Positions 7,544 through 26,188 of a stretch of 64,000 bases of DNA are shown here, in pieces. The translations under genes were made by a program, and so were the position numbers. The notes under the pieces are model-generated. The model had not been told where the DNA came from. It ran no database searches and saw nothing but the letters and a program-made list of their open reading frames with translations. The stretch covers positions 975,501 through 1,039,500 of the forward strand of contig NZ_AP021888.1 in NCBI RefSeq assembly GCF_011398155.1. Reading direction: 5' to 3'. This DNA comes from Thiosulfativibrio zosterae. GTDB lineage: Bacteria > Pseudomonadota > Gammaproteobacteria > Thiomicrospirales > Thiomicrospiraceae. Within the stretch, counting starts at the first letter, position 1, and the number at the start of each line of letters is the position of its first letter.

Positions 7544-7798
7544 ATGAGCCAGTTAGTGTTAGAAATAAAAAATGAAATGGTAAAAGAGCGGTTGCTTTGG
7601 CTTTTACAACACTTTAAAAAAGACGAGCTGGAAATTGTTGGCACCTACACCGTTAAAGACAACCAGGTCTGGTCAGATGAATACATCGAACAAAATTGGC
7701 GAGAATTGATCATCACATCATCAATGCAGCCGGATTATGAAAAAAGCAGTCAGTTTCGTGAAGAATTTGGCGAGTATTTGGCAGAGAAGAATAAATGA
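7544..7798 (+). CDS. small antitoxin-like protein preceding a PIN domain
   Basis: 84-residue acidic protein starting 9 bp after a strong AGGAGG. Its N-terminus '[18 protein letters not shown]' is the kind seen in small partners of PIN-domain toxins, and its stop overlaps the PIN ATG (ATGA), exactly as in VapBC-type operons. No DNA-binding fold is obvious by eye. I infer it is, or was, the antitoxin of the PIN domain encoded next; the family assignment is weak and an antitoxin role is not shown by sequence alone. Confidence 0.5.
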
Positions 7799-9357
7799 AA
7801 AAATTTTTAATTGATTTGAATATCCTGTTTGATAACTATGACGCTAATCGACAAGCTTTATTCCCGAACTCGATTGAGTCGCTTCAGCTTTTAAAGTGTG
7901 CACCTGACTGCGAGTTGTTTGTATCATCCAGTTCGTTGCATAATTTACAGTATATAAAAGCGACCAGCATAAAAAGAGAGCACGCTGCAATTACGAGACA
8001 AAATGCGGATAAACTGGCTAATCATTTCATCAAGGATGTTTTGTCTTACTGCAAGCTTGCCAAAACCCCAAGCTACATCGACATTGACTACGACGACATA
8101 GAAGACTCGCAAATCATCGCCTCCGCGCGAGCCATTGACGCCAAAGTCCTCACCCGTGACGAAGGCATGTTGACGAAATACCCAGATGAGACCATCAGCC
8201 CGGCTGAATTTTTAAAAAAAAAAACCGAGCCACAAAAAGTCAGCTTCTTAGATCTCAAGGCGATTAACCAACAATACATCCATGAGTTTGAACAAGCCTT
8301 CGACCAAGTGCTAAATTCCGGCTGGTATATCCAAGGCAACCAAGTTAAAGCCTTTGAGCAAGAATTCGCCGACTACTGCGGCACCAAGCACTGTATTGGC
8401 GTAGCAAATGGTCTTGATGCGTTGATCCTCATCCTAAGAGCCTACAAAGAACTCGGAAAACTCAAAGAAGGTGATGAGGTTATTGTGCCCGCCAATACCT
8501 ATATTGCCAGTATTCTTGCTATAACCGAAAATCGCCTTAAGCCGATATTAGTAGAACCCGATGCACAAACCTACAACTTATCACCAGGCCTGGTTGAGAC
8601 AGCAATAACCCCAAACACCAAGGCCATTTTAGCAGTGCATTTATACGGACAGCTTGCCGATATGCCAGCAATTAATGCCATAGCCCAAAAGCACAATCTA
8701 TTGGTTATTGAAGATTCTGCACAATCGCATGGCGCAAGTATTGATGGACGAAAATCAGGCAACTGGGGCGATGCCTCTGGCTTTAGTTTTTACCCAGGTA
8801 AAAATCTAGGTGCGCTAGGCGATGCCGGCGCCATCACCACCAATGATGATGAGCTCGCGCAAACCATCCGCGCACTCGGAAACTACGGCAGCCATAAAAA
8901 ATACGAAAACCTTTACCAAGGCCTAAACAGTCGCCTAGACGAAATGCAAGCTGCTTTTTTAAGGGTTAAACTAAAAACATTAGATCAGCAAATTGAAAAG
9001 CGCCGTCAGATTGCAACTTGGTATTGTTCGTATATTGATAATAAAAACATTGCTCTACCTGATCGACTACCAAGATCCGACATTCGACATGATACACATC
9101 ATGTGTGGCATTTATTCGTCATTCGTACCAAGGAGCGTGCAAAACTGCAAGGTTATTTAGCTGAAGAAGGTGTTCATACTTTGATACATTATCCATTAGC
9201 CGTTCATAAGCAGCGCGCCTTTAATAATTGGCCAAAACATCATTATCCTGTTACTGAAGCTCTTTCAAGTGAAGTGTTGAGTTTACCAATTAGTCCTGTG
9301 ATGACCGATGAAGATACATTATCAATTTGTAAGTTGATCAATGATTTTTCGAACTAA
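7795..9357 (+). CDS. PIN-domain (VapC-like) fused to DegT/DnrJ/EryC1 aminotransferase (FdtB-like)
   Basis: 520 residues in one frame. Residues 1-140 are a PIN nuclease domain: '[10 protein letters not shown]' (Asp7), '[26 protein letters not shown]' (central and C-terminal acidic residues) and the closing 'ISPAEFL'. From about 149, '[21 protein letters not shown]' is the normal N-terminus of FdtB/QdtB-type PLP aminotransferases, followed by '[13 protein letters not shown]', 'EDSAQSHGA', '[20 protein letters not shown]' (PLP lysine) and '[12 protein letters not shown]'. Each half is full length, so this is a genuine fusion or two genes joined by loss of a stop and a start. The joint is an A11 run (8214-8224), where slippage would give a PIN-only product. 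FdtB aminates the C3 keto sugar made by FdtA. Confidence 0.9.
8214..8224 (+). repeat. A11 homopolymer at the PIN/aminotransferase joint
   Basis: Five T then eleven A at the domain boundary. Losing one A (or a +1 slip) leads to TAG at 8249-8251 and a PIN product of about 151 residues; gaining one A (or a -1 slip) leads to TAA at 8265-8267 and about 157 residues. Both are normal VapC lengths. Confidence 0.9.
8583..8594. repeat. 12-bp palindrome ACCAGGCCTGGT, exact copy
   Basis: Inside the aminotransferase half, read as PGLV. Confidence 0.8.
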
Positions 9358-9869: not shown

Positions 9870-11462
9870 TTAATATTGAGCCTGTTTGCTCAGTGCTGAG
9901 TTTGTTTTGGTAAACAATTCTGATTTTAACGGATTATGGGCAAAAGTTGCTTTCCAGACTCTGGGTGTGAGTTGAATAATATCTTTAGCGGGATGTTGAT
10001 TGATGCGCAGCAATACATCAGTCAGATAAGTATAGGGGTTGATGTCGTGTAGTTTACAGGTCGTGATTAAACTTTGAATAATCCCCACCTGTTCAGCCCC
10101 CATCTCTGTCCAGCAAAAGAGCCAGTTTTTGCGTCCCATAGGAATGGGTCTTAGGGCTATTTCTAAATGATTGGTATCCAGGGGAACCTCTGGGTCACTC
10201 AAAAATACCTGTAAAGCCGTTTGTTTGGTGAGCGCATAGTGGATGGCTTTTCTAAAGGGATCTTTAGGGGTAAGATCTGTGCGCTCACTTTGTTGAAGTG
10301 CCCATTCAAAAAACTGCTCTACTATGGGTTTTGAGTGTAATAGGCGGTAATTGCGTTTGAGTTCACCTTGTAGATGTTGTTGTTTGATTTGCTCTTCAAA
10401 ATGATAGAGTTTGCCAATGAGATCTAAAGCCGTATTCACCGCTTCTGTGGCGTGTGTTTGAGCATTGATAAATTGTCGACGGGTATGTACCCAGCATTGG
10501 GCATGGGTAACCCCTTCAGCCTGTTGGGCAAAACGCGCATAGGCACTGTAGCCATCACTGATGAGTGTGCCGCAAAAGCGCTCTTTGAGTTGTTTTTCAA
10601 TATGGAATCGCCCTCGACTGGTACTGAAGGTAAAGACCACTTCATCATCTTGTCCATAAATGGGCCAAAACCAAGCTTGTTTGAGTTTACCGGGGGATGA
10701 GAGTCCCGCTTTAATGGGGGTTTCATCCATGGCCAGGACTTTTGAGCGTAGAACATGGTCTAGTTGTGCCATCACGATCGGTCTGAGTAAATCAATGCTG
10801 CGTTGGCTAAGATTGGTCAAGGTGCTGCGAGATAGGGTAATACCGCCGTGATTGAGACGTTGGTGTTGACGATAGAATGGAATGTGGTATTGAAACTTGT
10901 CTATCAACAGTCCTACGATGAAGCTCACATCACTTAAGCTTTTATCTAACACATTGTCTGGTGCAGGACTGGGAGCGATCACTTGAGTGGTACGGTGTTT
11001 GATGATTGGGCGATCATAACGCAAGATGACATAGCTTGAGGGGCGTTGTGCGAGACGAAAGGTTTGTTTTAGGCCGATGATTTCATAATCATCGGCATCA
11101 GGGCCTTGCAGCTCAGCTGGCAGGATTTCAATCACTTCAACCGGTACCTGGTCATTAAAGCGTAAACCCGCTTCGTTTAAAGTGTCATCTGCTCGTAGTT
11201 TGCCTAAGCGACGTTGATAACTGACGGTGATGACTTCACCCTCAGGTGTTGAAGCCTTAACAGGCGGTGATAGTAAATCTAACAGACTGAGTTGTTCATC
11301 AGGAATTTCAACCAAACGCTTTTCAGTTTTTTGTCCAAACAATTGCTTTTTAAACCAATCGAGTTGGTTTTTGAGTAAACGAACTTCTTCTTTAAGTTCA
11401 AGATTTTCTTGGCTCAGTGCAATCACATTTTGGGACATATTAAGCGTCATGTAACAGGTCAT
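9870..11462 (-). CDS. tnpC: IS66-family transposase TnpC (DDE)
   Basis: Up to 530 residues; internal ATGs near 11445 and 11436 could be the real start. An N-terminal leucine-rich coiled coil ('LSQENLELKEEVRLLKNQL') is followed by 'FGQKTEKR', then the catalytic domain with 'LAMDETPIKAG' (first Asp), 'GTLISDGYSAYARF' (second Asp) and 'NHLEIALRPIPMGRKNWLF' (Glu). These are the standard IS66 signatures and the gene appears intact. It catalyses element transposition together with TnpA and TnpB; because tnpA is broken, this copy is probably no longer able to move by itself. Confidence 0.93.
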   Translation of the reverse strand: MTCYMTLNMSQNVIALSQENLELKEEVRLLKNQLDWFKKQLFGQKTEKRLVEIPDEQLSLLDLLSPPVKASTPEGEVITVSYQRRLGKLRADDTLNEAGLRFNDQVPVEVIEILPAELQGPDADDYEIIGLKQTFRLAQRPSSYVILRYDRPIIKHRTTQVIAPSPAPDNVLDKSLSDVSFIVGLLIDKFQYHIPFYRQHQRLNHGGITLSRSTLTNLSQRSIDLLRPIVMAQLDHVLRSKVLAMDETPIKAGLSSPGKLKQAWFWPIYGQDDEVVFTFSTSRGRFHIEKQLKERFCGTLISDGYSAYARFAQQAEGVTHAQCWVHTRRQFINAQTHATEAVNTALDLIGKLYHFEEQIKQQHLQGELKRNYRLLHSKPIVEQFFEWALQQSERTDLTPKDPFRKAIHYALTKQTALQVFLSDPEVPLDTNHLEIALRPIPMGRKNWLFCWTEMGAEQVGIIQSLITTCKLHDINPYTYLTDVLLRINQHPAKDIIQLTPRVWKATFAHNPLKSELFTKTNSALSKQAQY

Positions 11463-11954: not shown

Positions 11955-12156
11955 AATGTGACTAAACCTGAGCTAATTGCAGCTCTATGCCATTAGGGAG
12001 TTTTAAGGTGATTTTCCAAGATTGATGGGCGCTTGGGTTTTCACAAGATGAAGTTGTCATCGAACTTAGGGGTGCTGTATTGATTAATTGAGCAAGAGTG
12101 TTTAGTTGAATAAGGTTGTGAGTGTCACGGGACTTTTTGACGGTAGGGATTGATGC

Positions 12157-13499
12157 GAGCCTGTAAATCAAACTGTGTAAACGCTCATAGATTAAAATCC
12201 TCAAAAAAGGAAAAAGCTATGAGCAACTTAGACCACAAAAAACTCCAAGAATTGGCCAAAGAACTTGCCAAGTCTGTTAAAACACAAGAAGACCTATCCA
12301 ACCTTTCATCCATGCTGGTTAAGATGACTGTTGAAGCAGCCCTTGGCGCTGAGAAGGAAGAACATTTAGGCTACTCAAAAAACCAAGTTACCGACTCAAC
12401 TAACAGCCGTAACGGCTACACCAGCAAAACCCTCAAAGGTGATCATGGTGAAGTTGAACTGTGCGTCCCTAGAGACCGTAACAGTACCTTTGAACCCGTC
12501 ATCGTTAAAAAAGGCGCTACACGACTCACCCACATGGATGACCAGATTCTTAGCCTTTACGCTAAAGGTATGAGTACCCGAGACATCGTTGACGCCTTTA
12601 AAGAAATGTACGGTGCTGATGTTTCACCCACCCTCATTTCTAAAGTCACCGAATCTGTACTCGAGAAAGTTACCCAGTGGCAAGAACGACCCCTCGATGA
12701 AATCTACCCCATTATCTACCTTGACGGCATAGTGCTCAAAATCCGCCAAGACAAACAAGTGTTGCGCAAAACCATGTATGTAGCGCTGGGCATTAACCTA
12801 GAAGGTAGAAAAGAATGTTTGGGGCTTTGGTTATCAGAAAATGAATCTTCCAAGTTTTGGTTAAATGTTTTAAATGACCTTCACGCCCGTGGCGTGAAAG
12901 ACATTCTCATCGCATCGGTTGATGGCCTAACAGGATTTCCTGAAGCGATTAATGCTGTCTACCCTAAAACAGATATACAGCTTTGTATTGTCCATATGGT
13001 GCGTAACTCACTCAAGTATGTCGGCTATAAAGAACGCAAACTGGTTGCCACTGATTTAAAAGACATTTACCAATCCGTCACTGAAGCAGGTGCTTTAATG
13101 GCGCTGGAGCGCTTTGAACAAAAATGGGATGCAAAATTTCCCGGTATCAGCAAATCCTGGCGAACTCACTGGGATAATGTCTCAACCTTGTTTTTATATC
13201 CAGAATCAATACGTAAAGCGATCTACACCACTAATGCCATAGAATCACTCAACTCTGTGATTCGCAAAGCGGTGAATAATCGCAAGATTTTTGGGCATGA
13301 TAATTCGGCATTTAAAATTGTATTTTTGGCGATTGAATCGGCATCAAAAAAATGGACAATGCCGATTCGGGACTGGAATGCTGCGATGAATCAGTTTATA
13401 CCCCTCAAGGGGGTACTATAAAGAGTGATTTTGCATGAAGACCGCCTTATAGGGCGGGTGTAACCAAATGGGCGTTTACACAGAATTATTTACAGGCTC
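12157..13499 (+). mobile_element. IS256-family insertion sequence with perfect 8-bp target duplication
   Basis: Imperfect inverted repeats start GAGCCTGTAAAT and extend to GTGTAAACG at both ends (from 12157 and inverted to 13499). The flanks carry an identical 8-bp duplication ATTGATGC (12149-12156 and 13500-13507), the size made by IS256-type elements. The perfect duplication and the clean restoration of tnpA indicate a recent, simple insertion. A stem-loop CCGCC/GGCGG follows the transposase gene near 13442-13456. Confidence 0.95.
12219..13421 (+). CDS. IS256-family (mutator-like) transposase
   Basis: 400 residues from the ATG at 12219, chosen because AAGG lies 8 bp upstream and because a longer in-frame start at 12150 is outside the element. 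Family motifs are present: 'RNGYTSKTLKGDHGEVELCVPRDRN', 'IIYLDGIVLKIR' (first Asp), 'IASVDGLTGFPEAI' (second Asp), 'CIVHMVRNSLKYV', and 'IESLNSVIRKAVNNRKIF' (Glu). No internal stops, so it is probably functional. It is the only clearly intact single-gene transposon in the window. Confidence 0.95.
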   Translation: MSNLDHKKLQELAKELAKSVKTQEDLSNLSSMLVKMTVEAALGAEKEEHLGYSKNQVTDSTNSRNGYTSKTLKGDHGEVELCVPRDRNSTFEPVIVKKGATRLTHMDDQILSLYAKGMSTRDIVDAFKEMYGADVSPTLISKVTESVLEKVTQWQERPLDEIYPIIYLDGIVLKIRQDKQVLRKTMYVALGINLEGRKECLGLWLSENESSKFWLNVLNDLHARGVKDILIASVDGLTGFPEAINAVYPKTDIQLCIVHMVRNSLKYVGYKERKLVATDLKDIYQSVTEAGALMALERFEQKWDAKFPGISKSWRTHWDNVSTLFLYPESIRKAIYTTNAIESLNSVIRKAVNNRKIFGHDNSAFKIVFLAIESASKKWTMPIRDWNAAMNQFIPLKGVL

Positions 13500-14112: not shown

Positions 14113-14126
14113 AGGATTGAGTGCAC

Positions 14127-15452
14127 ATGAAAAAGATAATATATAAATTTTTGAAGACCGTGGCTTATTTTTTACCACAACCGGTACAGGTAGTGCTGAA
14201 GAAAAAATTCATTTCTTTAACTCGTTTATACAGCTTAAGTATTCTCCCTAGAATTTTGGATGCCAAAAAAAAGAAGCTCGTCCAGAGTGTTTCTGGAAAA
14301 AAAACGGTTAGAGTTGTCTTTTTGGCAATTCATAAAAGTGTTTGGAAGGTTGATCCAGTCTTTCAAAAAATGCAGAAGGATTCGTATTTTGAACCTATCA
14401 TTTTAGTATGCCCCTATGTTCAATATGGTCATCAAAGAATGTTAGACGACTTAAATGCGACTTATGAATATTTTGCTAGTAAGGGCTATCCTGTTTATTC
14501 TTCTTTCAATCCAGCGGATGATACTTGGTTGAACTTAGATGAACTGAAGCCAGATATTTTGTTTTTTACCAATCCCCACAACTTAACCCGCAAAGAATAT
14601 TATTCTGATGTTTACAATGCATATCTGAGTGTTTATGTACCCTATTACTTTATGGCTACAAAACATGCGGGTGATGATTATGCAATGTATGGCAGCCCTT
14701 TCCTATCATCCATGTTTAAGGTTTTTTGGCCAAGTGAATATCACTTACAACAACAGAAAAAGGTTACCAGGGGGCAGGTAAAAAATGGTCTGGTAACAGG
14801 CTATCCTGCGATGGAACCTATTGTCGAAACAACTAAGGTTATAAAGGTATGGAAGTTGCAAGAAAACCAAAAGAAGAAAATCATCTTTGCGCCGCATCAT
14901 ACGATTGTTCAAGGTGAAAAGTCTCTTTCGTCTTTTTTAAAATTAGCAAGTTTTATACAATCATTGGCGATGCAATTTTCTGATCAAATACAATGGAGTT
15001 TTAAACCACATCCCATTTTAAAAGCAAAGCTGATAAAACACCCTGAATGGGGTAAAGAAAAAACGGAAGCTTATTACCAATTTTGGCTAACTAATACATT
15101 TACCCAGTTGGATGAAGGCGAGTATATTGATCTCTTCAAAGAATCTGATGCGATTATTCATGACAGTAGTTCGTTTATTGCCGAGTATGCTTTTTTAGAA
15201 AAGCCAGCTCTATTTCTTATGGATGAAGAAAAAGCAAACTATATTGTTAACTCTTTTGGCAAGATGTTTTTGCAACAATATCTAGTGACAGATAATAAAG
15301 AAGAGATAGTGGAATTTATAAAGGAAGTGTTGCAAGGCAGTATTACAGCAAGTAACAGCCCAAGCCTTAAAAATTACATTACAGAATTCTACATTGAAAA
15401 CCAACCCTCTGAATTAGTGATAAACCATTTAAAAAAAGCATTATTAAGTTGA
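14127..15452 (+). CDS. CDP-glycerol/glycan phosphotransferase-like protein (TagB/F superfamily)
   Basis: 441 residues from the ATG at 14127, preferred over GTG 14121 because AAGGA at 14112-14116 is better spaced. N-terminal basic segment, then a nucleotide-sugar-transferase-like fold with 'VVFLAIHKSVWKVDPVF', 'IFAPHHTIVQGE', 'WSFKPHPILKAKL' and 'DLFKESDAIIHDSSSFIAEYAFLEKPALFL'. The 'DS/SSxxxExxxxxKP' signature is that of CDP-glycerol glycerophosphotransferases. It directly precedes the phosphoramidate-type genes with a 1-bp gap, so it might be the transferase that adds a CDP-activated group; that is inference only. Confidence 0.7.
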   Translation: MKKIIYKFLKTVAYFLPQPVQVVLKKKFISLTRLYSLSILPRILDAKKKKLVQSVSGKKTVRVVFLAIHKSVWKVDPVFQKMQKDSYFEPIILVCPYVQYGHQRMLDDLNATYEYFASKGYPVYSSFNPADDTWLNLDELKPDILFFTNPHNLTRKEYYSDVYNAYLSVYVPYYFMATKHAGDDYAMYGSPFLSSMFKVFWPSEYHLQQQKKVTRGQVKNGLVTGYPAMEPIVETTKVIKVWKLQENQKKKIIFAPHHTIVQGEKSLSSFLKLASFIQSLAMQFSDQIQWSFKPHPILKAKLIKHPEWGKEKTEAYYQFWLTNTFTQLDEGEYIDLFKESDAIIHDSSSFIAEYAFLEKPALFLMDEEKANYIVNSFGKMFLQQYLVTDNKEEIVEFIKEVLQGSITASNSPSLKNYITEFYIENQPSELVINHLKKALLS

Positions 15453-15453
15453 T

Positions 15454-18400
15454 ATGAAAAGCAAAATAGCAATTTTAGCTGCAGGTATGCCGCACTTTGG
15501 TGAACTACCATCTCTCAGTAGTAAAGTAGGTGGCTTGTCTATTCTCGATTGGCAATTAAATAGCTTAAAGGCGCTATCGGCTATAACAGATGTGGTTGTT
15601 GGTTTTCGTGCCTCTGAATTGGACCTTGCACAATATGCGAGTATTAATTTGATTGAGAATCCCCACTGGCAATCAACCGGCAGCGTAGGCTCTTTGTTAT
15701 TGGTTGATATTGAAGATTGTGATGAATTATGGGTCAGTTATGGTGATGTTGTTTATCACCAGAAACCTATAGAGAGGATGTCTGAGATAGATTCGGATGT
15801 TGTCATCGCTTATGACAGTGAGTGGACTACACGATACTTGGGGCGTGATCTGTCAGATATTAAGAATGCGGAAAAAGTCATTTTGACAGGTCAAAATATT
15901 AGTCGATTAGGCCAAGATATCAATTTGGATTGGGCAACAGGTGAGTTTATCGGCCTCGTTAGAATAACTGGTGAAGCACTAGCAATACTTAAGAAGCTGA
16001 AAATAAAGCCTTTAAAAAATTTAGCAAATTTATCTTTACCTGATTTGCTTGAATTGCTTAGGTTGAAAGGTGCCCAATTAATAGGTTTCGATATTAAAGG
16101 TCAGTGGGCAGAGCTCAATGAATCTAGAGATTTAGCGCACTTTGTAATGGGGACAAAATCAGAAACACTTTTAAGATTGCATGGAATGTTGAAGTCTGCG
16201 GTGATTCAAGAGCAAGCATCTTTTTCAGTTGCTGATTGGAAAACACAATCGCAAGACTTGATTAGACAGATTCAGGCCAATTTACCTCATGAAAAACTTG
16301 TGGTGCGTTCAAGTGCGCTAAGTGAGGATGCTTTTACTCATTCTAATGCAGGCGCATATACCAGCGTTTTAAATGTACAGAACAATATAAAAGATCTAAC
16401 AGATGCAATTATAAAAGTCATCAACTCTTATGATAACCTGCAACTTGATGATCAGGTTTTAGTACAGCCTATGCTGACAGATGTTGTGATGAGCGGGGTA
16501 GTCTTTACCAGAACATTGGAGCAGGGTGCGCCTTACTATGTTATTAACTATGAGGAGTCTGGTTCGACAGAGGGCATTACTTCAGGTCATGCGGCACAAA
16601 ACTCCGTATTTTACTTTTATAAAAAAGCAAACCCAGATAAGGTTAGCTGTAAAAAGCTCAGAAACCTTATAATTTCTCTTCAAGAAATTGAGTTACTTCT
16701 TAATTATGATGCCTTAGATATTGAATTTGCCGTCGATAAAGCAGGTAGAATTCATATTTTTCAAGTTAGACCGATCAGTTTGCATCAAAACATTTCTTAT
16801 CAAACCGATCAAGAGATTGCTCTGTCAATTGAGCAGGCAAAGCGTTTTTATCAACAATGTTGTCTTATGAATGACGGCTTGGTTGGCAATCGAACGATTT
16901 TAGGCAATATGCCTGATTGGAATCCAGCAGAGATTATTGGTACCAACCCTGGGAATTTATCTTATTCTTTATATAAATATCTTATTCTTGATGAAGTTTG
17001 GGCTCAGCAACGTGCAGAGTTTGGCTATCGTGATGTAAGGCCATATGGTTTGTTAAAGCGTTTTTTAGGCCAACCCTATGTTGATGTTAGAGCGAGCTTT
17101 AACTCTTTTATACCCAAGAACTTATCTAATGAACTAGCAGAGAAGCTTGTGAATTTTTACAGTGTTTGGCTAGTCTTAAATCCACACTTACATGACAAAA
17201 TTGAATTTGAAGTGGTTCCAACTTGTTTGAGCTTAAACTTTGATCGTTGGAAGCAGCGTTTAATAAGAGAGGGTGGCTTTGATGCCAGTGAAGTAACTCA
17301 ACTGAAAGAAGGTTTGAAAGAAGTCACTAATAATGCCATAACGCGTGTTGAATCAGATCTTAAGATAGTGGAGAAGCTAAAAGTTTTATTAGATACTCCA
17401 ACCTATAATTCAGATAACTTCGTTAGTATATCTAGTATTAAGACGCTGTTAGATGATTGTAAGCGTTTAGGTACGCTTCCTTTTGCGCACCTCGCACGCG
17501 CTGGTTTTATAGCGATTACTTTTTTAAAGGACGCCGTGAAAGTTGGTGTTATTTCTAAACAAGCTCAAGAAGGCTTTTTGGAATCATTAAAAACGGTTTC
17601 GCATTCTTTCTCAGAAGATGCTTATTGTGTCAAAACTTCTTCAATGGCTTGGTTAGAGTTTGTTCAAAAGTATGGTCATTTAAGACCCGGAACTTATGAC
17701 ATAAATTCATCGGCATATCACGAGGATTCAGAACATTACTTAAAGCCGGCGGTTGAGCGATCTCAAAAACTAGTTAGTGATTTGGAAAAGCGAAATTGCT
17801 GGGAAAAAGAAAAAAACCGGCTATTCGATGGATTAAGAAAAATCGGAATCCTATCAGATGATGAACAGCTTGAGTCTTTTATGCGACAAGCGATAGAGGG
17901 AAGGGAAAAAGCAAAGTTTATTTTTAGTCGAAGTTTATCAAAAGCATTAGATCAATTAATTATTTGGGGGGATAGGAATCAGCTTTCGCGCGAATTCATA
18001 GCAGAGCTTTCAATAACACAAATTTTCGAACATATAGAGCAAATTTCTTTGAGTGAAACCGAGTGTAAGAAGTTAAAAGAGTTAGCCAATAACAGTTTGC
18101 AAATGCGTAAGACGAATTTAGCGTGTGAATTGCCACCACTGATTGTTTCAGAACAAGATTTTCACTATTTTACCTTAAATGAAAATCACCCAAATTATAT
18201 TGGTTCAACCAAAGTATCTTCTGTAGTTATTGACTTATCAAAAACTGCACAAAATGACCAGGTGAGTGGGAAAATTGTTCTGATTCCGCAGGCTGACCCT
18301 GGTTATGATTGGTTATTTGGACAAGGTATTGTTGGACTGATTACGATGTATGGCGGAGCTAATTCGCACATGGCGATTCGTTCTGCAGAATTTGGTTTGC

Positions 18401-18501
18401 CTGCGGCTATCGGGGTGGGTGAAGCTTTATACAAGAAACTATCACAAGCAAACCAGCTTGAGTTGGACCCATCAAACTCTTTGATACGGTTGGTTCATTG
18501 A
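15454..18501 (+). CDS. glutamine kinase-like PEP-synthase-family protein with N-terminal nucleotidyltransferase-like domain
   Basis: 1015 residues. Residues about 1-235 resemble a sugar nucleotidyltransferase ('IAILAAG', 'ELWVSYGDVVYHQKP', 'TGEFIGLVRIT') but lack the GxGTRL loop, and visibly resemble the separate cytidylyltransferase at 20380. From about 283 comes a pyruvate-phosphate-dikinase-type ATP-grasp domain ('VVRSSALSEDAFTHSNAGAYTSVLNV' region, 'DIEFAVDKAGRIHIFQVRPI'). The C-terminal swivelling domain has 'GGANSHMAIRSAEFGLPAAIGVG' with the phospho-carrier His972. Campylobacter Cj1418, an L-glutamine kinase of phosphoramidate (MeOPN) synthesis, has this kinase architecture, and here the two partner enzymes lie next door. 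A PEP synthase role is less likely given the context. Confidence 0.75.
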   Translation: MKSKIAILAAGMPHFGELPSLSSKVGGLSILDWQLNSLKALSAITDVVVGFRASELDLAQYASINLIENPHWQSTGSVGSLLLVDIEDCDELWVSYGDVVYHQKPIERMSEIDSDVVIAYDSEWTTRYLGRDLSDIKNAEKVILTGQNISRLGQDINLDWATGEFIGLVRITGEALAILKKLKIKPLKNLANLSLPDLLELLRLKGAQLIGFDIKGQWAELNESRDLAHFVMGTKSETLLRLHGMLKSAVIQEQASFSVADWKTQSQDLIRQIQANLPHEKLVVRSSALSEDAFTHSNAGAYTSVLNVQNNIKDLTDAIIKVINSYDNLQLDDQVLVQPMLTDVVMSGVVFTRTLEQGAPYYVINYEESGSTEGITSGHAAQNSVFYFYKKANPDKVSCKKLRNLIISLQEIELLLNYDALDIEFAVDKAGRIHIFQVRPISLHQNISYQTDQEIALSIEQAKRFYQQCCLMNDGLVGNRTILGNMPDWNPAEIIGTNPGNLSYSLYKYLILDEVWAQQRAEFGYRDVRPYGLLKRFLGQPYVDVRASFNSFIPKNLSNELAEKLVNFYSVWLVLNPHLHDKIEFEVVPTCLSLNFDRWKQRLIREGGFDASEVTQLKEGLKEVTNNAITRVESDLKIVEKLKVLLDTPTYNSDNFVSISSIKTLLDDCKRLGTLPFAHLARAGFIAITFLKDAVKVGVISKQAQEGFLESLKTVSHSFSEDAYCVKTSSMAWLEFVQKYGHLRPGTYDINSSAYHEDSEHYLKPAVERSQKLVSDLEKRNCWEKEKNRLFDGLRKIGILSDDEQLESFMRQAIEGREKAKFIFSRSLSKALDQLIIWGDRNQLSREFIAELSITQIFEHIEQISLSETECKKLKELANNSLQMRKTNLACELPPLIVSEQDFHYFTLNENHPNYIGSTKVSSVVIDLSKTAQNDQVSGKIVLIPQADPGYDWLFGQGIVGLITMYGGANSHMAIRSAEFGLPAAIGVGEALYKKLSQANQLELDPSNSLIRLVH

Positions 18502-18502
18502 T

Positions 18503-19108
18503 ATGAAGAGAATAGGCATTTCCCAGCGCAGAGACGACGTTCCCAATAGAAACGAAACAAGAGATTCACTTGATGTCATATGGTCAAGTCTTCTGTGGCG
18601 GCTAAATATTATTCCAATTCCTCTGTGCAGTGAAATCCAAGATCATCTAAGTTATTTGGCGGCCCTTAATTTGGATGGTTTTATTTTATCGGGCGGAAAT
18701 GATATAGGTGAAAGCCCTAAAAGAGATCATTTAGAAAATAGCATTCTTGATTATTCAAAAGCAAAAAATTTACCCGTCTTAGGTGTCTGTAGAGGTATGC
18801 AATACATAAATTTCTATCAAGGTGGGAGTTTGATCAATATCGGTGGCCATGTCGCAACTCAACATTCCAAGCTGGTGGGTGGATGGGTTTCGCAAAACAG
18901 TATTAATTATGTTAACAGCTTCCACAATTATGCAGTCACTGATCAAACAATAGGCGAGCAATTAGAGCCGCTTGCTCATACTGAAGATGGAGTTGTCGAA
19001 GCTTTACAGCATAAACACCATCCTTGGTTAGGCATTATGTGGCACCCAGAACGTGAACCCTATCAAACTTCAAACGATAGATTAATTCAACAACACTTTA
19101 AGGTTTAA
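18503..19108 (+). CDS. class I glutamine amidotransferase-like hydrolase (Cj1417/PuuD-like)
   Basis: 201 residues. The nucleophile elbow 'GVCRGMQ' holds the catalytic Cys near residue 95; 'MWHPERE' near 180 supplies His and Glu of the triad, and 'FILSGGNDIG' forms the oxyanion region. It belongs to the gamma-glutamyl-GABA-hydrolase-like branch. In Campylobacter, Cj1417 splits cytidine diphospho-L-glutamine into glutamate and cytidine diphosphoramidate. It starts 1 bp after the glutamine-kinase-like stop, which supports that reaction here. Without the context it would be called a generic peptidase C26. Confidence 0.78.
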   Translation: MKRIGISQRRDDVPNRNETRDSLDVIWSSLLWRLNIIPIPLCSEIQDHLSYLAALNLDGFILSGGNDIGESPKRDHLENSILDYSKAKNLPVLGVCRGMQYINFYQGGSLINIGGHVATQHSKLVGGWVSQNSINYVNSFHNYAVTDQTIGEQLEPLAHTEDGVVEALQHKHHPWLGIMWHPEREPYQTSNDRLIQQHFKV

Positions 19109-19111
19109 AAG

Positions 19112-20383
19112 ATGGTTTCGCTGATTGAAGAGATAAAAAAAGATTTAGATTATAAAAATCAATTTTTGATTGATCGCCTTTGCTTTTTAATTGATGTAAA
19201 AAAGATAATTCATAAAGCATATTCGGATAATGATTTGAAGCAGGGCGATCAAACGCTGACCGCGCCGGATTTAATGCAAATATGTGATTACTTAAAAAGC
19301 GCTTCCGAGCAAAAGGAAAATCTAGATTACAAAATTGTCAATAGTTTGCTAAAAATTCAATCGGGTGAAATAGTATGGCCTGAAAAATTTGTTTTCTCAG
19401 AAGATGTAGCGAGTTTTTTATATAAGGCTCTGAATGATTTGCAATTACCTAAAATAAAAAATAAGTCCGCTTTATGCAATATTGGTAGCTGGGTAAATGC
19501 AGTAAGTGTATCCCCAGGGCAGGCTATAAAAAAAATGGATTTTACATTTGTGAAATGGAATGAAACCCTTGGGAAAGCATATTCATTTGCATTAATGTCA
19601 CAAAATATTTTGCCGACAAGTGTTATCAAGGTGCGACCCACACAAAGCTGGAAAAGAAGAGTTTTAGGCTTACTTCCAATAATGTTTCAAAAGTTTGTGT
19701 TTATCAAATTAAAACCTGGTCTTTTAAATACCGTATCTGTCAAAGGCAGTTTAAATATTTTTAATGAAGATCATTGTTTGCATAAAGTCTATGGCGATAG
19801 GCTTGTAATAAAAAATAGTATGGTTGTCAATGCATCAAACATTAATGAGCATAAAATTGTTGATGCGATGAAGAAAGGCAATGGGAGTGCTCTATTGTTT
19901 TCGGGTGGTGGTTTGGTTAGACAAAATACATTTGAGCAAGTAAATAAAAAATTTATTCATATGCATCCTGGAAAATTACCAGAAGTGAGGGGCGCGGATG
20001 GATTTTTCTGGTCAGTGTTGTTAAATGGTTATCCATCTTGTTCTGCCTTTTACCAAAATGTAGGTATAGATACAGGGGGTGTCATTCATGAAGAGAGTTT
20101 TGAGTTGCCAATGTTCAATACGTTATTGATAAGTGAATTAGAAAGTCACGCCAAATCTAATTTTTATGATGTAGTTTATCGTTCGATACTAGATTATTAT
20201 GACCCAATGATGCGAGCGATTACATTGTCTGACGTTCTTGAGAAGGTGAATGCTGGTAGTTCAATAGATGATTTAGAGTTGCGCTCTCAAAAAGAGATTG
20301 AAGGACGCAATTATCATTTTATGCACCCTTCGCTAAGAAATAAGTTAATAGAATTAATTTTAAATAATAGAGAGAAAGTATGA
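19112..20383 (+). CDS. formyltransferase-like protein of unknown substrate
   Basis: 423 residues. The N-terminal ~150 residues are Lys-rich and helical with no recognised fold. The C-terminal half holds a formyltransferase-like core: 'KGNGSALLFSGGGLV', 'FIHMHPGKLPEVRGADGFFWSVLLNG' and 'AFYQNVGIDTGGVIHEESFELP'. The usual N-x-H-P-(S/G)-x-LP motif reads H-M-H-P-G-K-LP, so the catalytic Asn position is His, while the later Asp of 'GIDTG' is kept. It sits inside the phosphoramidate-like operon, overlapping the cytidylyltransferase gene by 4 bp, yet has no counterpart in the Campylobacter pathway. It may formylate or otherwise acylate the product, or may be non-catalytic. Confidence 0.6.
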   Translation: MVSLIEEIKKDLDYKNQFLIDRLCFLIDVKKIIHKAYSDNDLKQGDQTLTAPDLMQICDYLKSASEQKENLDYKIVNSLLKIQSGEIVWPEKFVFSEDVASFLYKALNDLQLPKIKNKSALCNIGSWVNAVSVSPGQAIKKMDFTFVKWNETLGKAYSFALMSQNILPTSVIKVRPTQSWKRRVLGLLPIMFQKFVFIKLKPGLLNTVSVKGSLNIFNEDHCLHKVYGDRLVIKNSMVVNASNINEHKIVDAMKKGNGSALLFSGGGLVRQNTFEQVNKKFIHMHPGKLPEVRGADGFFWSVLLNGYPSCSAFYQNVGIDTGGVIHEESFELPMFNTLLISELESHAKSNFYDVVYRSILDYYDPMMRAITLSDVLEKVNAGSSIDDLELRSQKEIEGRNYHFMHPSLRNKLIELILNNREKV

Positions 20384-21153
20384 GAATAATTATCCTTGCA
20401 GCGGGACAGGGGACACGCTTAAGACCTTACACAAATGATCGCCCAAAATGTATGGTAAGTTTAAATGGTAAACCACTGTTGCATTATCAACTCGATGTGA
20501 TGAACGAATTGGGCATTGATAAGTCAGATATTGCTTTAGTTGGCGGATATTTACAAGAAGCCTTGGTTGCGCCGGGTATAAAACAGTATAGAAACGAAAA
20601 ATTTGCTGAAACCAACATGTTGGAAACCCTCTTCTGTGCGGAAGAGTTTATGACGGATGATGATTTAATCATTGCCTATGGGGATATTGTCTATAAACCC
20701 GAGGTGCTACAGGCTTTGATTGATACTGAAGGCGATGTAGTGATTACTGCCGATTTGGAATGGGAGCAACTTTGGTCATTAAGAATGGAGAATCCATTGG
20801 ATGACGCTGAAACCTTCAAAATGAATGATCAAGGTTTTGTTATAGAGTTAGGGAAGAAACCACAATCTAATGAAGAAGTTCAGGCTCAATATATGGGGTT
20901 GATTAAGGTTAGTCGTGAAAAAGTAAGAGCTTTTAAAAGTTTTTATCAGAGCTTGGATCGAAAAGCGATTTATGATGGCAAAGACTTTGACAATATGTAT
21001 ATGACCAGTTTTATTCAAAATCTAATTGATGGCGGTTGGAAAGTTAAACCCGCATTAATCAAAAATGGATGGGTAGAAGTGGATACAGTCGAAGAACTAA
21101 AGCTTTATGAAAAAATGAAGATCTTTTTACACACTAAGTTAAATAAATCATGA
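20380..21153 (+). CDS. CTP:phosphoglutamine cytidylyltransferase-like nucleotidyltransferase (Cj1416-like)
   Basis: 257 residues with an intact nucleotidyltransferase signature 'IILAAGQGTRLRPYTNDRPKCMVSLNGKPLL', the metal-binding 'IIAYGDIVY', 'GLIKVS', and a closing 'NGWVEVDTVEELKLYEKM'. It is of the LicC/Cj1416 type. In Campylobacter, Cj1416 couples CTP to phospho-L-glutamine. With the kinase-like and hydrolase-like genes just upstream, the reaction order kinase, cytidylyltransferase, hydrolase is complete. A phosphocholine or sugar-phosphate cytidylyltransferase is the alternative reading, but no choline kinase gene is near. Confidence 0.78.
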   Translation: MRIIILAAGQGTRLRPYTNDRPKCMVSLNGKPLLHYQLDVMNELGIDKSDIALVGGYLQEALVAPGIKQYRNEKFAETNMLETLFCAEEFMTDDDLIIAYGDIVYKPEVLQALIDTEGDVVITADLEWEQLWSLRMENPLDDAETFKMNDQGFVIELGKKPQSNEEVQAQYMGLIKVSREKVRAFKSFYQSLDRKAIYDGKDFDNMYMTSFIQNLIDGGWKVKPALIKNGWVEVDTVEELKLYEKMKIFLHTKLNKS

Positions 21154-21647
21154 TCGAATCCCTGATTGCCCCAGTATCTGAATGGTTGATTAAAAAAGGC
21201 CAGGATAAAATTAAGGAGTCGGCGGAGTTTCAAAACACACGCTTGGCGATACGGCAGGCGGTGGTTCGCGAATTACGCTTGAACAGGGCTTTTATTGACG
21301 AGGTAATAAAGCTTAAAGAAGACGTTACAGGTTTGACCCTTGCGATGGCTGAAGAATTAGAAGTCAGTGCATTTAATAAGCTAGAAGACTCGTTTATGCC
21401 GATTGAGCTTTTTTTCGATTGTGAACGCCCTGCGTTGGATGAAGAAAGTTCGGATGGCCAATTTTTAAACTGGGCCAGTCAGCTAGAAAATGAAGCCTTG
21501 TGGGTCGAGCGTATTTATATGCGGTTACGCATTTTAAGAGCACGCTGGCGTTGCAGCAAAGTCCCAAAAAACAAAAGCGTGCAATATGTACGGTGGTTAA
21601 TCGATACTTGGTTAAAACAGCAGACAAACCGTAACCGTACATTCTAA
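21150..21647 (+). pseudogene. hypothetical protein gene, 3' end replaced by an IS66 remnant
   Basis: The first 160 codons are a helical, charged protein ('LIKKGQDKIKESAEFQNTRLAIRQAVVRELRLNRAFIDEVI', Trp-rich C-terminal half) that I do not recognise. The frame then enters the IS66 tip at 21631 and stops at TAA 21645, so the last five residues (RNRTF) are transposon-derived. Its start overlaps the cytidylyltransferase stop (ATGA), so it belonged to the phosphoramidate-like operon. Whether the shortened protein still works is unknown. Confidence 0.6.
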
Positions 21648-21716: not shown

Positions 21717-22548
21717 TGTGGCTACATTATTTCGTAACAAACAAGCGCAGCTTTTAGCGATGCAAAGACGACAAACAGCTTACAAAGCCATAAAGTTAAC
21801 CTAAACTACGACAGACTGGCTTTCACAGCTCATTGAACAAGATTTAAGCCCACAGCAAGCTGTTGATTATCTGATGCGTGAAAAAGGCATTAGCCTTCAT
21901 CACGAAACGGTGTACCAGTTTATTTATCGAGATAAAGCCAATGGCGGTCAATTGCATGAACACTTGAGAATTGCCAATAAGCCCTATCGCAAACGCTATG
22001 GAAAAAATGACCGCCGCGGGCAAATCAAAAACCGCATCTCAATTGAACAACGGCCTGAGATTGTTGAGCAAAAAACAAGGATTGGTGATTGGGAAGGTGA
22101 CACAGTTATTGGCAAGGGACATAAAGGAGTATTACTAACGCTTGTAGAGCGTAAGACACTGTATACCCTCATAGTGCCATTACCAGACAAGCAATCTGAG
22201 AAGTTAGCCCAAGCAGTGATTAATGCCATGAAAGGCCTTAAATCTCAAGTACTGACGATTACCTATGACAATGGTAAAGAATTTGCTGACCATGAACGGA
22301 TGGCAAAGGCGTTGGAAGCAGATATTTACTTTGCACACCCTTATGCTTCTTGGGAGCGTGGAATTAATGAAAATACCAATGGTCTGATACGCCAGTATTT
22401 TCCCAAAGGTATGGATTTAAGAGGTGTAACAATAGAGCAAACTCAGTATGTTATGGACAGATTAAACAATCGTCCAAGAAGTAGTCGAGGAGGTAAAACA
22501 CCTAATGAATTATTTAAGGGGCTGCGAGTAGATTTACTGGCAGCGTGA
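21717..22548 (+). pseudogene. IS30-family transposase, 5'-truncated with an internal stop
   Basis: Frame 1 from 21721 gives 'RNKQAQLLAMQRRQTAYKAIKLT', then TAA at 21802-21804, then resumes '...DWLSQLIEQDLSPQQAVDYLMREKGISLHHETVYQ'. From the ATG at 21874, 224 residues cover the catalytic half: 'IGDWEGDTVIGKGHKG' (Asp), 'TITYDNGKEFADH' (Asp), 'FAHPYASWERGINENTNGLIRQYFPKG' (Glu). The N-terminal DNA-binding part is missing at the IS66 junction. The catalytic domain is well preserved, so decay is fairly recent. Confidence 0.88.
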
Positions 22549-25486: not shown

Positions 25487-26188
25487 ATGAGTCAAGATAA
25501 TGGTGAAATTTTTGAATCAGCTGTAAGAAACTACTATAGCCACATAGATTCAGACCCTCATCACCGGTTTATTTCTTGGGAGCATTGCTATCTAAGATTT
25601 TCATCATCAGATTTCTGTAAGAACGATTTTGAGAAGGATATAAGCGCATTACATTTGGCTTTTTATTTAGCAAGTTGGGGAATGTATAGAGGGTCAACAG
25701 ATCTTTTAAATAAAGACTATAAAATACTTTTACCAATTATTGATGTCATTAAAAATCATAACGAGCTTAGGCAATATAATTATTTAGATAGTGACCAGTG
25801 GATATCTGATCATTATGTAAGTAAAGTCTTAGATGTAAATTCGGAACTCAGTGAAGTATTAAAGAAGGTCTTTAATGATGGCGCGACACCAACAGACACC
25901 CTTGTTTCTAAGATTTTACTTGGTACTTTGGGCTGTATACCGGCTTACGATAGATATGTTAAGCAGGGTATGAGTGCTGAAGAAGTAACTCAAGCCATCT
26001 CAGAGAAAGGTTTAAAATCTTTAATAAATTTTTGTAAAAATAAGAAAGATAAAATACACGCTTTATCTAATATCATGCGTTTAAAAGATGATAACAATCT
26101 TCATTATCCACCAATGAAAATTATTGATATGTACTTTTGGATAACAGGTTTATCTAAAGAAAAAGAAGTTTTGAATTGTGAAAAATGA
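25487..26188 (+). CDS. conserved-looking hypothetical protein, coupled to maf
   Basis: 233 residues from the ATG at 25487, chosen because GAGGTG sits 7 bp upstream; an earlier GTG at 25478 is part of that site. Distinct segments are 'DISALHLAFYLASWGMYRGSTDLLNKDYKILLPIIDVI' and 'SKILLGTLGCIPAYDRYVKQGM'; no membrane spans or signal peptide, and rather aromatic. I do not recognise a characterised family. It overlaps the following flagellin glycosyltransferase gene by 11 bp, implying joint translation, but its position right after a transposon remnant means it could equally be an unrelated arrival. Confidence 0.75.
   Translation: MSQDNGEIFESAVRNYYSHIDSDPHHRFISWEHCYLRFSSSDFCKNDFEKDISALHLAFYLASWGMYRGSTDLLNKDYKILLPIIDVIKNHNELRQYNYLDSDQWISDHYVSKVLDVNSELSEVLKKVFNDGATPTDTLVSKILLGTLGCIPAYDRYVKQGMSAEEVTQAISEKGLKSLINFCKNKKDKIHALSNIMRLKDDNNLHYPPMKIIDMYFWITGLSKEKEVLNCEK

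Follow-up and report, generated by a model that had tools for sequence, protein, structure and literature searches.

Within the 64,000-nucleotide stretch of DNA that was analysed (the window), an open reading frame on the plus strand (15454-18501, ATG start, 1015 amino acids) was found that is, judged by its sequence, a glutamine kinase of the Cj1418 type carrying an extra N-terminal domain with the nucleotidyltransferase fold. It is nearly certain that this N-terminal part (N-domain) represents a catalytically dead cytidylyltransferase-fold domain. Since the catalytic loop was lost in 53 of 53 N-domains with letters there, the fused kinases and the N-domains each form one clade and the usable dN/dS values range from 0.04 to 0.21, the N-domain is an old, selected pseudoenzyme domain and not a recent copy of the cytidylyltransferase (CTase) gene located at 20380 in the same cluster.

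The kinase part was identified by the NCBIfam model NF004508 (789 positions), which matched residues 224-1014 of the fusion protein with 895.2 bits, compared to a cut-off of 501. In NCBIfam this model bears the name 'hypothetical protein'; we take NF004508/PRK05849 to stand for Cj1418. Because the model spans residues 224-1014, the N-domain is additional to the NF004508 family. It extends over approximately residues 1-231, close to the boundary of about 235 given in an earlier sequence-only reading of this DNA. The conserved kinase start, GTK, lies at residue 233, and the junction between the two parts is short (residues ~224-243) and situated directly at the kinase start. The kinase part contains an invariant His972 within the motif GGANSHMAIR and is related to rifampin phosphotransferase as well as to PEP synthase. 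The structure predicted for the full chain reached a pLDDT of 86.8 and a pTM of 0.82, and its best Foldseek match was rifampin phosphotransferase 5hv1 (E = 3.6e-23), with a TM-score of only 0.33/0.39.

The fusion gene belongs to a group of six open reading frames that are arranged head to tail between positions 14121 and 21647; neighbouring frames are either separated by 1-3 bases or overlap by 4 (Table 1). The product of the first gene is putatively a candidate phosphoramidate transferase; a homologue of it (at least 80 bits) was present in 5 of the 56 loci of the fused set described below. The hydrolase matched the gamma-glutamyl-CDP-amidate hydrolase model NF045546 with 123 bits, below the cut-off of 250. 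Since the kinase was detected (at E 1e-40) only in the window's own genome among 57 related genomes and transposase-like open reading frames, recognised by eye, flank the cassette on both sides, the cassette was probably acquired. A scan for promoters and terminators revealed no excess over shuffled sequences.

Table 1. Features of the fusion gene and its cluster (positions in the window)
Feature	Position	Strand	Basis
CDP-glycerol glycerophosphotransferase-like protein	14121..15452	+	PF04464 2.9e-7
Pseudo-nucleotidyltransferase N-domain (residues 1-231)	15454..16146	+	BLASTP/hhalign to CTase, predicted structure, catalytic loop lost
Replaced catalytic loop, residues 8-24, LAAGMPHFGELPSLSSK	15475..15525	+	alignment of 54 N-domains
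Kept metal-site Asp98 (54/54 N-domains)	15745..15747	+	alignment of 54 N-domains
Kept Glu220 (54/54) and Asn222 where the CTase has Asp	16111..16119	+	alignment of 54 N-domains
Glutamine-kinase-like part (residues 233-1015)	16150..18498	+	NF004508, Foldseek, conserved blocks
Class-I amidotransferase-like hydrolase	18503..19108	+	Peptidase_C26 1.2e-23
Formyltransferase-like protein	19112..20383	+	weak family matches
Intact CTase, phosphoglutamine-CTase-like, GxGTR...PK present, 257 aa	20380..21153	+	PF12804 5.8e-14, LicC 6e-15
165-aa open reading frame, 4-base overlap with the CTase gene, no Pfam match	21150..21647	+	open reading frame list, Pfam

In a single BLASTP comparison (E = 7e-12), the first 249 residues of the fusion protein and the CTase were 23% identical across 244 aligned columns, and a search of the whole own genome with the N-domain yielded only the domain itself and this CTase (E = 1.1e-8). 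Alignment of the N-domain profile with the CTase profile by hhalign gave a probability of 99.9% (E = 3.8e-35). The Pfam family PF12804 recognised the N-domain weakly (18.0 bits, under the gathering cut-off of 27) and matched 12 of the 56 members of the fused set at an E-value of 0.01. An AlphaFold2 model of residues 1-254, calculated with 54 sequences, had a pLDDT of 85.8 and a pTM of 0.84. Its best Foldseek match was the CTP:inositol-1-phosphate cytidylyltransferase (IMPCT) 4jd0 (E 2.7e-14). By VIA-align, the N-domain was superimposed on PntC 6pd2 with a Z-score of 23.1 (3.0 A, 231 residues); GlmU 1hm8 (Z 22.6) and 4jd0 (Z 22.4) were both tied with PntC, and values of 21.3 and 20.5 were obtained for LicC 1jyk and for the GMPPA/GMPPB complex 7d72, respectively. 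The N-domain is thus predicted to have a nucleotidyltransferase fold. This matches the sequence-only reading, in which a nucleotidyltransferase-like domain had been placed in front of the kinase and a structure prediction had been proposed as a check; the predicted fold was not an unrelated one, and the aligned strings quoted there ('LWVSYGDVVY...' and 'IIAYGDIVY...') were correct.

The N-domain of the window does not contain the GxGTRL signature (AAGMPHFGELPS). In the alignment of 54 N-domains, from which L036, L051 and L110 were left out, the motif GxGxR-x4-10-PK occurred in the loop of none of the 53 N-domains having letters there (L082 has none), compared to 48 of 48 neighbouring CTases, that of the window among them, so the earlier statement that the signature is replaced was confirmed. 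The N-domain of L073 harbors one GYGSR string, which lies outside the loop. To call the domain degenerate, as was done in that statement, undersells it, as the replacement loop has a conserved pattern of its own, family-wide roughly LGAG[RK]Px.G..P[SAT]A[LM]. Among the 54 N-domains, Gly was found in 51 at position 9, Ala in 53 at position 10, Pro in 37 at position 13 and Gly in 47 at position 16. Position 12 is basic (R/K) in 38 of them and Met in the window, whose loop fits the family pattern loosely.

Tde-PntC needs Arg15, Lys25 and Lys153 (PMC6697681), and for IMPCT the residues R16, K26 and D112 have been named critical (PMC12275187). In the N-domains, the equivalents of PntC Arg15 and Lys25 were lost, and that of Lys153 was mostly lost (at position 154, seven of the 54 have K and 13 have R). 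Arg131 was kept in 53 of the 54. Glu220 is the match of the metal-coordinating Glu216 of LicC, the two being paired through the motif. At position 222, Asn was present in 46 N-domains, Asp in six, Lys in one and Glu in one; due to this substitution of Asn for the Asp of the CTases, metal binding may be weakened. Many invariant or near-invariant N-domain positions aligned to conserved CTase positions (D98, W124, R131, E140, G167, W218 and E220). The CTase-conserved M208, T209 and TNM stretch is missing from the N-domains, and the stretch E[FLY]xG (E in 53 of 54) takes the place at which 47 of 48 CTases have Q. Taken by its residues, the N-domain has lost the PPi/triphosphate-binding loop and the catalytic Lys and retained the metal Asp and one Glu. 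Of the active site, the half for the triphosphate/pyrophosphate is lost, whereas the half that was kept comprises the metal side together with some of the acceptor side.

The nucleotidyltransferase tree comprised 66 rows, including 23 of the 54 N-domains and 22 of the 48 CTases of fused clusters. All 23 sampled N-domains formed one clade (90/88). A further branch (98/97) of this unrooted tree separated the N-domains, together with five PntC-like rows and the domain of L057, from all 37 pathway CTases in the tree. The PntC-like rows had been labelled by hand; one is a PEP mutase fusion (L050), one belongs to a cluster that looked phosphonate-related by eye (L042) and three are of unspecified context. 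In the kinase tree, which was calculated by a quick method with SH-aLRT values only, the 35 full-length fusions formed one clade (99) opposite 14 unfused kinases (99), and four long-branched or single rows fell outside. One old fusion event explains the data; as the tree is unrooted, a gain of the fusion is not distinguishable from its loss. A recent duplication of the gene at 20380 as the source of the N-domain was rejected by the clade separation in both trees. Hence, the assumption of the sequence-only reading that the domain is a degenerate paralogue of this CTase did not hold.

In the mosaic G375 (L012/L121), an unfused kinase occurs with a CTase that was placed among the fused type. Two additional members of the kinase family bear N-terminal nucleotidyltransferases of other kinds: L055 an HxGH-type PF01467 domain (E 5.3e-10) and L057 a truncated, divergent domain with a weak PF00483 match (E 0.005). 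For PEP mutase, fusions to PF12804 and PF01467 are described as common (PMC6697681). It seems that the bond-making enzyme picks up nucleotidyltransferase domains repeatedly, as in PEP mutase.

A contig scan yielded 54 N-domain loci, 52 of which showed one uninterrupted frame with the kinase. The two exceptions were L077, where the contig ends, and L110, whose N-domain has an internal gap and for which no kinase match was obtained by phmmer and tblastn; L110 was omitted from the trees as well. The scan was performed with two patterns and favours fusions, since one of the patterns reaches into the kinase start. Together with L036 and L125, the scan loci make up the fused set of 56 loci. According to the record titles, isolates with an N-domain belong to Pseudomonas, Marinobacter, Halomonas, Legionella, Aliidiomarina, Acidovorax and others, and one archaeon, the haloarchaeon Natronomonas gomsonensis, was among the loci. 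Bins and single cells were labelled Planctomycetota, Actinomycetota, Acidobacteria, Verrucomicrobia, Omnitrophota, Bacteroidetes and Anaerolineales. A plasmid collection contained 14 matching records, and in 7 of them the match covered 80% or more of the query. Five of these seven are fusions by coverage (Pseudohalocynthiibacter, Roseovarius with an identical protein, and three Vibrio alfacsensis records, one of which was examined); for two Azospirillum records the coverage was the sum of two genes, one of them an unfused kinase. The fusion proposed earlier to be sought elsewhere is therefore not restricted to the window, and the possibility that the N-domain is unique to this genome was rejected by the plasmid collection, the class sample and the contig scan. 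No match of the N-domain was found in phage records, nor any PHROG.

In a phylum sample of 398 genomes, 15 genomes possessed a kinase over the cut-off (16 genes), and the N-domain occurred only in that of the window. Of the other 15 kinases, 11 have frames of 779-809 amino acids and four of 854-903 amino acids. None of the 14 that were examined in the DNA had an N-domain match in frame; the fifteenth was judged by its frame of 787 amino acids. The idea that the N-domain is part of all Cj1418 homologues, named in the earlier reading as speaking against its interpretation, was thus rejected. In a class sample of 369 genomes, 45 matched the N-domain profile at E 1e-6. The three best genomes, including that of the window, contain fusions with frames of 1017, 1034 and 1048 (E < 1e-73), and the next match had an E-value of 4e-30. 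Among these fusions and the nine next-best rows (L042-L050) of the 45, no stand-alone N-domain gene was seen; eight of the nine rows carry GxGxR...PK and are CTase-like, and the differing one is the PEP mutase fusion L050.

Within the fused set, the kinase was present in 54, the hydrolase in 52 and an intact-type CTase in 49 loci. Where no CTase was present (seven loci), the contig is short or cut, and in L093 hydrolase and CTase are located upstream on the opposite strand. The 16 unfused clusters contain the CTase in 14 and the hydrolase in 13 cases; the unfused regions L117 and L120 have neither. An APS-kinase-like gene (neighbour profile) was found near 8 of the 16 unfused clusters, each time within ~1.5 kb of the kinase, and near none of the 43 fused loci that span 13 kb or more. 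Without the first-query locus the ratio is 0 of 43 versus 7 of 15 (Fisher p 2e-5, a value that ignores kinship, the fused kinases being one clade). The profile also matched weakly in L061 (E 4e-4), which was not counted, and the median total flank was 13.6 kb for the 43 fused loci and 16.4 kb for the unfused ones. A formyltransferase-like homologue was located near 24 of 43 fused loci compared to 2 of 16 unfused ones (p 0.003, ignoring kinship). In the window's genome, a single contig rated 100% complete, PF01583 gave no match; the control was positive in 11 of 14. We presume that Cj1415 belongs to the APS-kinase family. By a reference title in PMC11800397, Cj1415 is the 3'-kinase of the P-N bond pathway that is known biochemically from the Campylobacter capsule (PMC6429109, PMC11800397), in which Cj1415-Cj1418 convert glutamine, ATP and CTP to CDP-phosphoramidate 3'-phosphate (PMC11800397). 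Since no APS-kinase-like gene was found near the fused loci, fused clusters may stop at CDP-phosphoramidate. Outside Campylobacter, a phosphoramidate cluster has been proposed in Borg elements (PMC12660748).

The N-domain is under purifying selection. Its dN/dS was 0.042-0.206 in 13 usable pairs of 22, some of which have a dS > 2; nine pairs were set aside, eight with saturated dS and L088/L111, whose ratio of 1.01 is based on almost no differences. For the kinase part, values of 0.052-0.149 were obtained in 16 usable pairs. That the domain was kept, as assumed in the earlier reading, is in line with these values. On the other hand, the catalytic residues are gone, which would suit a useless relic from a recent fusion. 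This explanation has next to nothing in its favour otherwise, as it conflicts not only with the dN/dS values but also with the spread of the domain over phyla as one clade and with the uninterrupted frame it shares with the kinase in nearly all scan loci.

What the N-domain does may be considered along the presumed pathway. The kinase would make N-phosphoglutamine, the CTase would convert it to CDP-glutamine, and the hydrolase would free CDP-phosphoramidate. Of the roles considered, the likeliest, and a quite possible one, is that of a ligand-sensing domain controlling the kinase, by analogy with the action of GMPPA on GMPPB. GMPPA binds GDP-mannose and is itself a feedback inhibitor of GMPPB (PMC11228364). 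Similarly, the former active-site cleft of the dead domain might bind CDP-glutamine, CDP-phosphoramidate or phosphoglutamine, and the domain might adjust the kinase via the junction residues; the effect would most likely be a product feedback on the committed, ATP-consuming step. As the PPi/triphosphate side was lost and Asp98, Glu220 and Arg131 were kept, a nucleotide product could sit in the cleft and not be turned over. That the ligand comes from the pathway is a guess, however, since the CTase-conserved M208, T209 and TNM stretch was not kept. Alternatively, the N-domain could be an active enzyme with another chemistry, its replacement loop serving a different substrate. The conserved loop pattern and the invariance of Asp98 and Glu220 would agree with this, as would the fused CTases of PEP mutase enzymes, which follow a related logic (PMC6697681), but with the residues corresponding to PntC Arg15 and Lys25 gone, Lys153 mostly replaced and a basic loop residue that is not universal, such an activity is very improbable.

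The sequence-only reading had suggested a binding or scaffolding domain, perhaps with channelling; the dead domain would then associate with the active CTase, like dead and active pyrophosphorylases, and hand over N-phosphoglutamine from the kinase. An intact-type CTase does accompany the fusion wherever the contigs are not short or cut, and the same fold is known to form paralogue complexes (GMPPA/GMPPB, 7d72). Co-divergence, determined for 48 loci with distances that were not tree-corrected, was ambiguous in this respect: when the hydrolase was controlled for, a small correlation of N-domain and CTase distances remained (partial r 0.21, p 0.001), but none was left when the kinase was controlled for (partial r -0.03, p 0.67). 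Moreover, most unfused clusters run the same kinase-hydrolase-CTase set without an N-domain. Docking with channelling is rather doubtful. The distances of N-domain and kinase were strongly correlated (raw r 0.80; partial r 0.73 given the CTase, p 0.001), which does not indicate regulation because these are two parts of one gene; for N-domain and hydrolase, the partial r given the kinase was 0.17 (p 0.003). Co-divergence thus speaks only weakly for the N-domain acting on the kinase rather than docking to the CTase. An action on the kinase could also be purely structural, the N-domain shaping or stabilising it (oligomer formation, placement of the swivelling His domain) without any small ligand. 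The joint divergence with the kinase, the confident whole-chain model and the position of the junction fit this possibility, yet a purely structural role would not need CTase-like conserved positions, and many such positions were kept; we regard it as unlikely.

The ligand-sensing reading has a wider version, which is speculative and at present improbable. Outside Campylobacter there would exist a second, widespread type of phosphoramidate pathway that proceeds without the 3'-kinase step, often includes a formyltransferase-like enzyme and is throttled by a dead domain built into the kinase, which senses CDP-phosphoramidate or CDP-glutamine and would represent a new class of nucleotide-conjugate sensor. 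Related P-N gene sets with a built-in pseudoenzyme occur in numerous bacterial phyla as well as in one archaeon, and the N-domain is a simple marker for cryptic phosphoramidate gene clusters. If sensing of CDP-conjugates is true, it would show how a surface decoration that is costly in ATP and CTP is restrained. To our knowledge, few dead nucleotidyltransferases are known as regulators, and a fused, prokaryotic case would be added to them.

No report on a fusion of a dead CTase domain and a glutamine kinase was found in the open-licence literature. The kinase and the fold are already known; the new part is their union. With the Cj1418 L-glutamine kinase of the O-methyl phosphoramidate pathway, the fusion protein has in common the match to the kinase model and the adjoining hydrolase and CTase genes. 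What separates it from the Cj1418 model is the N-domain and, at the level of the cluster, the missing nearby APS-kinase-like gene. PntC, LicC and IMPCT (PF12804, COG1213 type) share with the N-domain the fold (Z 21-23), the YxD metal site and WxE, and the stretch E[FL]xG is common to Tde-PntC and the N-domains; the latter differ by the loss of GxG[T/S]R-PK, by mostly having Asn for Asp in WxExD and by their fusion to a kinase. GMPPA likewise combines a nucleotidyltransferase fold with the loss of catalysis and acts in the same pathway as an active relative (PMC11228364), a likeness at the fold level, but the N-domain is fused to the first enzyme of its pathway, a kinase. A parallel in architecture is offered by the PEP mutase-nucleotidyltransferase fusions of phosphonate synthesis, in which a bond-making enzyme is likewise joined to a PF12804 or PF01467 nucleotidyltransferase (PMC6697681); a fusion of PEP mutase with a phosphoglutamine-CTase-like domain has also been named in Borgs (PMC12660748). 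The fusions characterised in PMC6697681 are active CTases, in contrast to the N-domain, which is devoid of the catalytic residues and has a kinase as its fusion partner.

The operon region is probably an acquired island, since it is flanked on both sides by transposase-like ORFs and since the kinase, which was sought in 57 related genomes, was found only in the window's own genome. The same cassette is plasmid-borne in Pseudohalocynthiibacter and Roseovarius (loci L034 and L035). As the fusion protein has an identical accession on both plasmids, the cassette seems to be mobile across genera.

Genes of the window and kinase loci of other genomes
Feature	Location	Position (strand)	Remark
DegT/DnrJ aminotransferase	window	7795-9357	~150 additional N-terminal residues
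Transposase-like ORF	window	9870-11462 (-)	ORF list read by eye
Transposase-like ORF	window	12150-13421	ORF list read by eye
Glycerophosphotransferase-like gene	window	14121-15452	immediately upstream of fusion kinase
Formyltransferase-like gene	window	19112-20383	within operon
Transposase-like ORF	window	21874-22548	ORF list read by eye
MptE-like (PF01973) protein	window	26178-28685	835 aa, with TPR repeats
Kinase with HxGH-type domain	L055	910-3723 (+)	PF01467, E 5.3e-10
APS-kinase-like gene	L055	9105-9650
Kinase with nucleotidyltransferase domain	L057	5577-8567 (-)	domain truncated, divergent

Due to the formyltransferase-like gene in the operon, its product may be formylated. Homologues of this gene were detected near 24 of 43 fused loci, compared to two of 16 loci whose kinase lacks the N-domain. 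The glycerophosphotransferase-like gene, whose homologues occur at loci of Marinobacter, Pseudidiomarina, Halomonas (n=2) and Vibrio (n=1), encodes a candidate phosphoramidate transferase. When the fused loci among L058-L111, L036 and L125 that span 13 kb or more were considered, none of the 43 had an APS-kinase-like gene nearby, and a search of the window's whole genome for PF01583 gave no match.

Deviating arrangements were also encountered. L121 (genome G375) is a mosaic cluster in which a kinase of the unfused type stands with a cytidylyltransferase grouping among the fused type; both the formyltransferase-like and the APS-kinase-like gene are present. In L110, from an Acidimicrobiia bin, the N-domain contains an internal gap and no kinase is recognisable on the 5.9-kb contig, a state of decay or misassembly. 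In L055, a family member carries an unrelated cytidylyltransferase domain at the N-terminus of the kinase, and a separate MobA-like cytidylyltransferase is encoded downstream. In the nucleotidyltransferase domain joined to the L057 kinase, HTR and PK are still visible and YGD is absent.

For the extra N-terminal residues of the DegT/DnrJ aminotransferase, no Pfam family was matched. Proteins of the MptE-like type are associated with flagellin glycosylation, and the island may therefore serve surface or flagellar glycans.
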